Part shown: in pieces, positions 60,094-64,000 of the stretch
Numbering within the stretch: position 1 is the stretch's first letter
Layout: each line of letters opens with the position of its first letter
Source of the DNA: an uncultured Bacteriovoracaceae bacterium
GTDB lineage: Bacteria > Bdellovibrionota > Bacteriovoracia > Bacteriovoracales > Bacteriovoracaceae
Assembly (NCBI GenBank): GCA_937931205.1
Contig: CALHBF010000013.1
Span: forward strand, 124,001 to 188,000
Reading direction: 5' to 3'
Length of the DNA: 64,000 bases
Translations under genes and position numbers: made by a program
The notes under the pieces: generated by a model
Database searches by the model: none
What the model was told of the DNA's origin: nothing
What the model saw: only the letters and a program-made list of their open reading frames with translations

Positions 60094-60885
60094 ATGGTTC
60101 AATTAGTTTTAAAACAGATCAACAGTATCGGAGAGTCCCTCATTAGCTTAGTCAATGGGCTGGGAGACTTCACTCTTTTTGTTTCAAGAACAATCTTTTG
60201 GACTTTTAAACCTCCCTATCGTGTGAAATTACTTTTTGATCAGATTTATTTCATGGGAAATAAGTCCATCTTCATTATTTTTCTTACTTCTGTTTTTACC
60301 GGTGCTGTTTTTGCCATGCAAATCTATCTGGGAATTAAGGCCATCAATCCTGATTCTTTCATCGGACCAATCGTAACGATTGCACTTGCTAAAGAACTTG
60401 CTCCTGTTCTGTCTGGACTGGTTGTTGCTGGTAGATGTGGTGCCGCGATGGCAGCCCAGATTGGAAGTATGAAAGTAACAGAACAGATCGATGCGTTGGA
60501 AGTGATGGGTATTAATGGATACCAATATCTGGCAGTTCCTAGAATTTTAGGAGCAATGATCAGTATGCCTTTATTGTCTGCGATCTTTCTTCTTGTTGGT
60601 TACACTGGAGCTTGGTTGATAGCTACTAAAGTGTTGATGATTGATCCGACACTTTATACTCAGAAAATTTCTGATTTTATGAATCTTGGAATGGTTGTTG
60701 AGGGGCTTATCAAAGCTGCCGTTTTCGGTTATCTCATTGGGGTAATCGGAACATATCAAGGATTTAATGTAACAGGAGGAGCTGAAGGAGTAGGTAAAGG
60801 GACAAATATGGCCGTGGTATGGGGAATGATTACCGTACTGGTTATAGACTACTTCTTAACGACTTTCTTGGCGCAAATCCTATGA
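60094..60885 (+). CDS. mlaE: MlaE-type ABC permease
   Basis: 263 residues, about six transmembrane helices. TGAVFAMQIYLGIKAI, LAPVLSGLVVAGRCGAAMAA followed by QIGSMKVTEQIDALEVMGIN are the MlaE signatures. Inner-membrane core of a phospholipid transport complex that keeps outer-membrane asymmetry. It overlaps mlaF by four bases (ATGA). Confidence 0.95.
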   Translation: MVQLVLKQINSIGESLISLVNGLGDFTLFVSRTIFWTFKPPYRVKLLFDQIYFMGNKSIFIIFLTSVFTGAVFAMQIYLGIKAINPDSFIGPIVTIALAKELAPVLSGLVVAGRCGAAMAAQIGSMKVTEQIDALEVMGINGYQYLAVPRILGAMISMPLLSAIFLLVGYTGAWLIATKVLMIDPTLYTQKISDFMNLGMVVEGLIKAAVFGYLIGVIGTYQGFNVTGGAEGVGKGTNMAVVWGMITVLVIDYFLTTFLAQIL

Positions 60886-61625
60886 GTGAATATTCAGTAG
60901 AATTCAAAAATGTCTCAAAGAAGTTTGGTGAATCAACCATTCTTCATGATTTGAACTTCGGTATTCACGAAGGGAAAATCACGACTATTTTAGGGTTTTC
61001 TGGTGCTGGTAAAACAACTCTCATGAAGCATATTCTGGGATTAGTAAAACCAACGACGGGTGAAGTAATCGTAAAAGGAACAACGATTAATGAGCTAGGA
61101 GAGCTGCCCCTTCGTGAATTTCGTAGAAATTTTGGAATGGTTTTCCAGTATGCGGCCCTTTTTGACTTCTTAACAAGTTTTGAAAATGTGGCTTTCCCTC
61201 TAAGAGAATTCACTAAACTTTCAGAAAAAGAAATTCAGGATAAGGTATTGGGACTTCTTGAGTCGGTAGGAATCAATCGAGAAGCCGCCTATAAGCTACC
61301 TTCTGAACTCTCGGGTGGTATGAGAAAGAGAGTGGGGTTGGCCCGAGGTCTGGCCCTAGATCCTCACATCATGCTTTATGATGAGCCGACTTCCGGACTG
61401 GATCCTATTACTACTCATATGGTTTATGATCTGATGAAGGAGACTCATCTTCGTAATATTAGCAGAGGTTTTAGCTCTATTATTATTTCCCATGATATTC
61501 ATGCGACTATAAAATACTCTGATTACATCGTGTTTATGGAAAAAGGTCGAGTGGTTGAACATTTAGATACGGAATCTTTCAAGCGATCGGAAAATCCGGT
61601 CATTAGAAGATTTCTTGAGTTATAA
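60882..61625 (+). CDS. mlaF: MlaF-type ABC ATPase
   Basis: 247 residues from ATG 60882, overlapping the mlaE stop. Walker A GFSGAGKTT, Q-loop VFQYAALFD, signature LSGGMRKRVGLARGLALDP, Walker B IMLYDEPTSGLDP, H-loop IISHD. The GGMRKR signature is specific to the Mkl/MlaF group. Drives lipid movement by MlaE. Confidence 0.95.
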   Translation: MSEYSVEFKNVSKKFGESTILHDLNFGIHEGKITTILGFSGAGKTTLMKHILGLVKPTTGEVIVKGTTINELGELPLREFRRNFGMVFQYAALFDFLTSFENVAFPLREFTKLSEKEIQDKVLGLLESVGINREAAYKLPSELSGGMRKRVGLARGLALDPHIMLYDEPTSGLDPITTHMVYDLMKETHLRNISRGFSSIIISHDIHATIKYSDYIVFMEKGRVVEHLDTESFKRSENPVIRRFLEL

Positions 61626-61682: not shown

Positions 61683-63059
61683 TTGAATCCTCTGAAAGTT
61701 GGTCTGCTCGCTTTAGCAGCGTTAAGCAGTATCGTGGTCATGTCATTGAAAATCACTCAGAACCAAACTGGTTTTGGGACTCATACTGAGTATCAAACTC
61801 TATTAGAGGATGCTTCTGGTATTCAAGAAAAGACATCTATTAAAGTAGCCGGTATTACCGCTGGTCGTATTAAAAGCATTGAACTTCACGATAACAAGGC
61901 ACTCATTACTTTTGAAATTGTTGATAAAGTAAAAGTAACAGAAGGCTCATTCCTCTCTATTAAGAGTGTTGGGCTTTTAGGTGATAAGTTTATTGATTTA
62001 AGACTAGGGAATTCTGGAAATCCGTTGCCGGAAGGTGCGCGCCTGGAAACTCAGCCAGGAGCGGGCTTTGATACTCTTGCTCAAGATGCTTCAGCAGTCT
62101 TGAAGGAAGTAAAAGAGATTGCGGCCAGTGTGAAAGATGCTCTTCGTGATGAGAACGGTAATAATATGATGAAATCTATTATTGCTAACATTAATGATAT
62201 GGCGGAAAGTCTTAAGCGTATGTCGACTGGTAATGAAGATAAGATCAATCAGATCATTGCCGATATTGAGCAGCTCTCTGGGCAACTTGCTTATGAAACA
62301 GATCGTAATCAGAAAGACTCCTTTGCTAATGACTTAACGAAAGTCGGTCCAATCCTTGATAAAGTGGACTCTGCGATGGGTGATTTAAAAATCATTATGG
62401 CAGATATGAGAGAAGGTAAGGGAACTGTTGGTAAGCTTCTTCGTGATGAAGCCGTTGTCGACCAGGTTTCACAAACTCTTTCCAGTGTGAACAGACTTGT
62501 TAACCGTATTAATAACATTGAAGCGGATATCGCAATTGCCACTGGTGCTAACACTAGACTTGGATCTGATACTCGCTTTGATATTGATATCTTCCCGGCC
62601 CCTGAGAGATTTTTCAGGCTTGGTGTTGTGACAAATGATTTTGGTCCACAAATTGAGCGTGAGACAAGTACTTACACTAGTCAAAACGGCGGTCCTGAGA
62701 TGGAGCGAACTGAGAGAAAAATTAGAAAAGATGCTTTCAAATTCAACCTTCAAATCGGTCGTCGTATTCAAAGATTTGGTTTAAGAGCAGGTCTTATCGA
62801 GTCTACCGGAGGTGTGGGGCTTGATTACTTCTTCCCTGATTGGGGGATTAGAACGGGGACTGAAATTTTTGATTACCAAAAAGATGCAGGTCCTAACGTA
62901 AGACTATTCGGAGAAGTTAAGATTTGGAACGTAATGTTTGCAAGAGTTGCCGGAGAAGATTTACTTTCGAAAACTGGCAAACAAAGTGCTACACTTTCAG
63001 TAGGTTTAAGATTTAACGATCAAGATTTAGCAGCTTTAATTGGATTATTAGCAAGGTAA
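61683..63059 (+). CDS. mlaD: MlaD/MCE protein with long C-terminal barrel-like extension
   Basis: 458 residues from TTG 61683, which has GGGAGAG just upstream; GTG 61671 (four residues longer) is the alternative. Transmembrane helix at about 5-23, then the MCE domain at about 35-120 (GIQEKTSIKVAGITAGRI, SVGLLGDKFIDLRLG). A helical region with coiled-coil character follows to about 285. The last 160 residues alternate polar and non-polar with aromatic belts (FNLQIGRRIQRFGLRAGL, GLDYFFPDWGIRTG, ATLSVGLRF), as in outer-membrane barrels. E. coli MlaD has only about 183 residues. It may bridge both membranes. Confidence 0.85.
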   Translation: MNPLKVGLLALAALSSIVVMSLKITQNQTGFGTHTEYQTLLEDASGIQEKTSIKVAGITAGRIKSIELHDNKALITFEIVDKVKVTEGSFLSIKSVGLLGDKFIDLRLGNSGNPLPEGARLETQPGAGFDTLAQDASAVLKEVKEIAASVKDALRDENGNNMMKSIIANINDMAESLKRMSTGNEDKINQIIADIEQLSGQLAYETDRNQKDSFANDLTKVGPILDKVDSAMGDLKIIMADMREGKGTVGKLLRDEAVVDQVSQTLSSVNRLVNRINNIEADIAIATGANTRLGSDTRFDIDIFPAPERFFRLGVVTNDFGPQIERETSTYTSQNGGPEMERTERKIRKDAFKFNLQIGRRIQRFGLRAGLIESTGGVGLDYFFPDWGIRTGTEIFDYQKDAGPNVRLFGEVKIWNVMFARVAGEDLLSKTGKQSATLSVGLRFNDQDLAALIGLLAR

Positions 63060-63062
63060 TTG

Positions 63063-64000
63063 ATGGAGAAGAACTGGCTGATCCGTACAAAGTCGAATCA
63101 TATTTTGGGCCCCGTCTCGAAAGAGAAGGTGCTTGAGCTATTTAAAAATGGCTCACTCAAGGCCAATGATGAGATCTGTACTGGAAATGGTTTTTGGTTT
63201 TTCATCAGAGAAGAGGACATGGTCGAGCGCTATCTTATTGGTAATGCCAGACAGCCTTTTAATCCATTAAGCGAAGCTAAGAACGTTCTTACTCAGAAAT
63301 CAGAGCCTCATTTTCAAGAATCTACAGACATCACGCTTATTGGAAGCATCAATTTAGATGAAATTCAAGATGATCTAGGGGATAACCCAGAATTACCTCA
63401 GAAAGAATCTCTGGAACAAAGTGTTCCTAAAAGATCTTCTCCTGTAGAAGATCAAAAAAAAAACCAACCTAAGCTCAGAGTTGCCAAGCAAGTCCAAAAA
63501 AAAGTAGCGACTCCTAAGAAAAAGCACACTTACTTAAGAGTACTTTTCCTATTCTTCTTTCTGGCGCTCCTTTCTCTGACTTATTATCGAAAAAAGATTA
63601 TTCAGTACTTTTTTGACGGCGAGATGACTCGTGTTAGCCTTTTTCAAAATGCTTATGCTCAGACAGAAGTTCTGGAGTTAAAAAAAAAAGGTTTTTTTGA
63701 CGACATCATCTCCTTAGAAGGAATCAGTTTCAGTCCGGAAGCTGGGCTAAATGGTTTCAATGTCGTTTCTCAAATTGAAATTCAAAGTTTTAAATGTGAT
63801 GACCTTAAAAATGATGCCTTCAGGCTGGCATTATTGTTATTTCCGACAGATCGCTTTACTGAGAAATTTTTAATTAAGATGAGAGAGTGCATCGTTAAAA
63901 ATTCCAGCGACACACTTCTTACTGAGTGGTTAAAATCAATTGATCATAAAGTCGTACTTACTCGTGCCGAACAGAAAAGAAAAAATCTTCTCATTGATGT
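63063..64000 (+). CDS. GYF-like membrane protein, 3' end missing
   Basis: Starts at ATG 63063, three bases after mlaD, and stays open for 312 codons to the window edge. The N-terminal 55 residues (WLIRTKSNHILGPVSKEKVL, then FKNGSLKANDEICTGNGFW) fit a GYF_2-type domain, which binds proline-rich or peptide partners. A charged linker rich in E, P, Q, K follows, then one transmembrane helix (LFLFFFLALLSLTYY, about residues 163-177) and a C-terminal domain of unknown type. Likely part of the mla operon; function unknown. The true stop is outside the window. Confidence 0.78.
   Translation, partial: MEKNWLIRTKSNHILGPVSKEKVLELFKNGSLKANDEICTGNGFWFFIREEDMVERYLIGNARQPFNPLSEAKNVLTQKSEPHFQESTDITLIGSINLDEIQDDLGDNPELPQKESLEQSVPKRSSPVEDQKKNQPKLRVAKQVQKKVATPKKKHTYLRVLFLFFFLALLSLTYYRKKIIQYFFDGEMTRVSLFQNAYAQTEVLELKKKGFFDDIISLEGISFSPEAGLNGFNVVSQIEIQSFKCDDLKNDAFRLALLLFPTDRFTEKFLIKMRECIVKNSSDTLLTEWLKSIDHKVVLTRAEQKRKNLLID

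Follow-up and report, generated by a model that had tools for sequence, protein, structure and literature searches.

In the 64-kb window (the whole stretch of DNA that we analyzed), the genes mlaE, mlaF, and mlaD lie in this order in an operon-like run on the forward strand. We think it likely that they encode a lipid transporter of just three genes, MlaEFD, in which MlaD alone spans the cell envelope, as a hexamer with a tunnel and six outer-membrane barrels whose interiors the lipids bypass. This reading is based on sequence and on structure prediction: the order of the genes, the order of the domains within MlaD, its barrel, and the lack of matches to MlaA or MlaC. An earlier note on this DNA had interpreted MlaD as having an outer-membrane barrel at its C terminus; the predicted barrel, covariation within it, and the missing matches to MlaA and MlaC all support that interpretation.

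The first gene, mlaE (60094..60885, + strand), encodes the 263-residue permease of an MCE ABC transporter (PF02405, E = 1.6e-72; TIGR00056, 220.5 bits, above the cutoff of 212.2). The ATG start of mlaF overlaps the stop codon of mlaE as ATGA, and from this ATG at 60882, mlaF (60882..61625, + strand) encodes an ABC ATPase of 247 residues (PF00005, E = 2.3e-32); its top match in NCBIfam is PRK11831, MlaF, at 192 bits, which is under the cutoff of 441. The third gene, mlaD (61683..63059, + strand), encodes an elongated MCE protein of 458 residues with a fused barrel, as judged from the open reading frame, a comparison of starts, and an alignment. The start that had been proposed for it, a TTG at 61683, held up: among the 22 rows from relatives that have the NPLKVG motif (two genomes are counted twice), all 22 have TTG at the same codon, and all 22 have GGAG within the 30 bases upstream of it. 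Directly 3' of mlaD is an open frame of 584 residues without a Pfam match (63060-64000 in the window; L175:3061-4815). About 3 kb downstream of mlaD is a lipoprotein-like protein of 213 residues, also without a Pfam match (L175:5945-6586), which we take to be reminiscent of LptE.

The N-terminal part of MlaD has the helix and the MCE domain that the earlier note had described as normal for MlaD. The predicted inner-membrane helix, at residues 6-24 (61698..61754, + strand), has the top 19-residue hydropathy in the protein (2.17) and is its sole strong hydrophobic stretch, as the next-best value beyond residue 40 is 0.94. The Pfam-matched part of the MCE (MlaD) domain follows at 61785..62003 (+ strand; PF02470, E = 6.3e-14). 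The profile for E. coli-type MlaD (TIGR04430) gave 65.8 bits and did not reach its equivalog cutoff of 135. Besides Pfam's MlaD, a search of MlaD against sequence families gave sub-threshold matches only, mostly to helical families. The extra length of about 330 residues and the strand block of about 160 residues had both been given correctly.

The first 150 or so of these extra residues, at roughly 128-277 (62064..62513, + strand), are probably helical, as had been proposed, and are the candidate wall of a tunnel. This region contains helices in a full-length AlphaFold model, which is poor (pLDDT 38) and was used for rough helix positions only, and Mce-type matches run across it. Specifically, TIGR00996 matches as far as residue 281 (73.6 bits, below the cutoff of 140.5), and in a phmmer comparison, the Mce chain 8fed_B covers residues 9-261 (E = 1.1e-10). 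(Residue numbers from Pfam, NCBIfam, and phmmer refer to a frame of 462 residues for MlaD, which is 4 residues more than 458.)

Past the helical region, residues from about 278 to 446 (62514..63020, + strand) most plausibly form a transmembrane barrel of ten strands, given a structural model, Foldseek matches, an alignment, covariation, and the alternation of hydrophobic residues. We modeled the last 189 residues alone with AlphaFold, together with two relatives; this model and the full-length model were each built on three close sequences. The predicted domain has strands throughout, with moderate confidence (pLDDT 60.7, pTM 0.48; two of the five models had pLDDT below 35), so the expectation that the C terminus would be modeled as a barrel of the transmembrane type was borne out at that level of confidence. 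The model has 12 strand runs followed by a short helix. We count ten strands, which is our own reading, by assigning the two runs of one hairpin to strands 3 and 4, which they would extend; in both the domain model and the alignment, these two strands extend into a long hairpin with a variable loop. This hairpin is one of two points on which the earlier description needed correction; the other is the end of the protein, which was thought to be strand-like. Instead, MlaD finishes with a conserved helix, about 12 residues long, past the last strand (residues 446-457; 63018..63053, + strand; helix 177-188 of the domain model), in which D448 is 99% conserved, L452 is 89% conserved, and D446 is 72% conserved (the rest are mostly N).

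When the domain model was compared to the PDB with Foldseek, there were 1,102 matches with E ≤ 10. Of the best 50, 43 are titled as outer-membrane proteins or porins, 6 are designed transmembrane barrels, and 1 (5g26) has an uninformative title. The best superpositions among the matches listed are to chains of 8uzl, the designed barrel TMB10_163 (TM scores of 0.60-0.70 by target length, rmsd 3.9-4.2; 0.70 and 3.9 for the best), whose name we take to mean that it is ten-stranded. Many of the porin matches listed have rmsd above 15 and mean little. No Pfam barrel family matched the C-terminal domain at E ≤ 0.1.

The alternation of polar and nonpolar residues in these strands, which had been noticed from the sequence alone, goes beyond chance. 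Summed over the cores of the ten strands in 206 sequences, the hydrophobic alternation was 18.05, which exceeds all of 20,000 shuffles (mean 7.19, maximum 13.68); this test was not blind, because the cores were picked after viewing the column profile of the alignment. Individually, 7 of the 10 strands reached P < 0.05, and strands 3, 5, and 6 failed.

Covariation supports the closure of the barrel, and this evidence comes from sequences and stands apart from the AlphaFold model. Starting from 239 domain matches, we dropped short sequences, duplicates, and sequences with unknown residues, which left 205 distinct sequences, or 206 with the window's own (effective number 158). We scored pseudo-likelihood covariation along antiparallel registers for all 45 pairs of strands, with the best parallel register as a control. 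Nine of the ten pairs that would be neighbors in the ring took ranks 1-9 of 45 (Mann-Whitney P = 4e-6; P = 5e-6 by permuting the ring). These include the closing pair, strands 1 and 10, which are far apart in sequence and ranked fourth. The lone weak neighbors are strands 8 and 9, at rank 21, and for two neighboring pairs (5-6 and 8-9), the parallel register outscored the antiparallel one. An earlier mean-field run on 124 sequences was noisy (P = 0.014), with the nonneighboring pairs 1-5 and 2-7 among the top scores, after which we added sequences and switched to pseudo-likelihood. The later run was not blind, because the strand limits (from the domain model and our reading of the alignment) were set after the first run, and its optimizer was still descending after 100 steps.

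The fused barrel is widespread in the phylum, which is known for predatory bacteria. A search with the whole protein found matches in 34 of 38 genomes, including the window's own. Besides the window, 20 rows match MlaD near full length at 67-75% identity; two of the relatives, both Bacteriovoracaceae metagenome-assembled genomes, have MlaDs that are 73-74% identical, which agrees with the earlier attribution to a Bdellovibrionota-type bacterium. An HMM of the barrel matched 111 of 144 and 299 of 368 genomes of the phylum, with one match per genome in nearly all of them, so the fused barrel is the usual design of MlaD in this phylum. The 33 of 144 genomes that lack the fused barrel (no match to this HMM) offer a natural comparison. 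Among 125 distinct barrel sequences, 70 have both mlaE and mlaF nearby on the same strand, 50 have one of the two, and 5 have neither, in a count where many of the stretches are short or near the ends of contigs and where the mlaF matches may be other ABC ATPases. MCE domains of any kind were found in 134 of the 144 genomes. Viral contigs had no match in a search that reaches close relatives only, and the matches from plasmids were 25 records, all actinobacterial (with at most 54% coverage of the query among the 20 rows listed).

A bridge made of a single protein, as had been suggested, would do without MlaA and MlaC. Neither MlaA (PF04333) nor MlaC (PF05494) has a match in the window's own genome, where absences are soft because the genome is 86% complete, and the MlaA profile matched none of the 144 genomes, the window's own included. 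MlaC-like genes are found in 42 of the 144 genomes, including 15 of the 111 with the barrel and 27 of the 33 without it (our count; Fisher P = 4e-13), but we do not read this anticorrelation as a swap of Mla parts, with MlaC replacing the fused barrel, because genomes are not independent of lineage. In all 14 of the MlaC regions that we fetched (4.6 to 12 kb, some of them cut by contig ends), the MlaC-like gene lies away from mla genes: there was no match to mlaE or to MCE nearby (at E 1e-4), and the single match to an ABC ATPase was in L183, where an OEP gene lies next to the MlaC-like gene. As for the machinery of the outer membrane, the window's own genome has three matches to the Omp85 family, which inserts barrels, and no match to LptD (PF04453). 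PF04453 matched 46 of 97 genomes of the phylum, and just 2 of the 20 genomes from the window's family among those listed, so this profile may simply miss divergent forms, and LptD may be divergent or missing.

The window's own genome has two MCE genes. The second is in another operon (L174:5113-7877, on contig C5 of G000), which has, in this order, a lipoprotein-like gene, mlaE, mlaF, and the MCE gene. The first of these encodes 158 residues, with a lipobox by our reading and no Pfam match, and the MCE protein has 281 residues and no barrel. Relatives of the 158-residue protein occupy the corresponding position in L191, L192, and L205. A third arrangement was found in 15 of 22 other MCE regions from relatives (L190, L193, L194, L195, L197, L198, L202, L203, L204, L207, L208, L209, L210, L211, and L213). 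In these, the MCE gene is followed directly by a gene for a small protein related to the one in L190 (phmmer, E ≤ 1e-3) and preceded by mlaF-like and mlaE-like genes, usually two of each (fewer than two of each were labeled in L195, L197, L208, L209, and L210). The small protein weakly resembles a barrel (PF13505 matched below the cutoff in 2 of 11 that were scanned), and it is possibly a split counterpart of the fused barrel. More tentatively, the phylum might run several MCE bridges in parallel, each with a different way to reach the outer membrane: the barrel fused to MlaD, as in the window; the operon headed by a lipoprotein, which this genome also has; and the transporter of relatives, with two different ATPases, two different permeases, and a separate small barrel-like protein after them. 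The barrel would then be a foot rather than a channel, and separate parts may stand in for a missing fused barrel.

What the fused barrel does may be reflected in its interior. Across the strand cores of the 206 sequences, 0.9% of the outward positions and 30% of the inward positions are charged; this contrast is partly built in, because the faces were assigned by hydropathy, but the conservation of the charges is not built in. After weighting the sequences, position 407 is basic (R407) in 99%, position 394 is acidic (D/E394) in 97%, R368 is basic in 82%, and D381 is acidic in 81%. Conserved charges at inward positions favor anchors over lipid channels. Hence, we favor the view that the barrels serve as a foot with which the tunnel docks to the outer membrane and are not lipid conductors, which gives a testable claim: the barrels would anchor MlaD and would conduct no lipid.

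The charged interior would also suit a barrel that is only an anchor or attachment point, with a separate outer-membrane partner that handles the lipid. Such partners may exist in the phylum, given the lipoprotein-like gene at the head of this genome's other MCE operon and the separate small barrel-like gene that follows the MCE operon of relatives. On the other hand, MlaA has no match in the 144 genomes, and Veillonella parvula is described as having MlaEFD only (in the available text of PMC10665443), so we consider a separate partner to be possible but somewhat doubtful. It seems improbable that the barrels are themselves lipid channels, with phospholipid passing inside each one to or from the outer leaflet. 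A closed barrel, backed by covariation and sited at the far end of a candidate tunnel, would be well placed for this, but the inward positions carry conserved charges (R407, D/E394, R368, and D381), and a 10-strand barrel is narrow. The available text of PMC10665443 leaves the route of the substrate open, which gives the channel some room. Finally, a soluble periplasmic beta domain would be compatible with the moderate confidence of the model and with the lack of a Pfam barrel family, but it is very unlikely, as one face is nearly free of charge in every strand core and the Foldseek matches listed are membrane barrels.

In the preferred reading, with MlaD as the sole bridge, six copies of MlaD would form an MCE ring on MlaE and MlaF in the inner membrane. 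Their helical regions would form a tunnel across the periplasm, and their six 10-stranded barrels would be planted in the outer membrane as the foot of the hexameric bridge. MlaF would power the movement of lipids along the hydrophobic tunnel. At its outer-membrane end, the lipids would pass in or out between the barrels or underneath them rather than via the barrels' charged interiors. We infer the hexamer, the bridge, the lipid cargo, and the coupling to ATP by analogy to V. parvula and to the structures of MCE proteins. Retrograde transport is the favored direction, also by analogy.

The closest known system is MlaEFD of V. parvula (Grasekamp 2023, PMC10665443). According to the available text of that paper, its MlaD has 419 residues, with about 150 helical residues and a 10-strand barrel; its two halves fractionated separately, the barrel half with the outer membrane and the MCE half with the inner membrane; and retrograde lipid traffic was inferred. 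The same text describes elongated MlaDs with barrels as widely distributed, and some of them carry an additional helical extension. The window's system resembles that of V. parvula in architecture: both have mlaE, mlaF, and mlaD genes, an N-terminal helix, a single MCE domain, about 150 helical residues, and a 10-strand barrel, and no MlaA or MlaC was found in either (the window's own genome being 86% complete). Because it fits the elongated MlaD of V. parvula in every feature tested, we regard it as one more example of an established type. It differs in its length (458 versus 419 residues) and in its phylum, and, beside V. parvula's MlaD as described there, it has a conserved C-terminal helix past the last strand and a long hairpin of strands 3 and 4. 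Our literature search recognized no earlier report of a barrel MlaD in this phylum. The main text of PMC10665443 does not contain "Bdellovibrio" or "Myxococc", but its species tables sit in the supplements, outside that search, so we do not claim a first report. What we add is the mostly single-copy presence of the barrel across most of the phylum, covariation that supports its closure, its charged interior, and the lack of MlaA matches in the sample.

More distant systems share parts of this design. As in the mycobacterial Mce1A-1F complex (8fed, 8fee, and 8fef), an MCE ring would be followed by a helical tunnel, but Mce1A-1F is a heterohexamer whose chains share a small barrel, built of one strand from each, instead of each having a complete barrel of its own (according to PMC10665443). 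Like the window's MlaD, MlaD from E. coli has a membrane helix and an MCE domain on an ABC transporter of MlaE and MlaF. However, it has just 183 residues and stops shortly past the MCE domain, while the window's MlaD continues for about 330 residues, and within the E. coli MlaFEDB system it works with MlaC and MlaA, neither of which has a match in the window's own genome. If our reading is correct, it extends the barrel-MlaD bridge across this phylum and lends support to the view, already published, that MlaEFD by itself is the common form and that the six-part system of E. coli is the exception.
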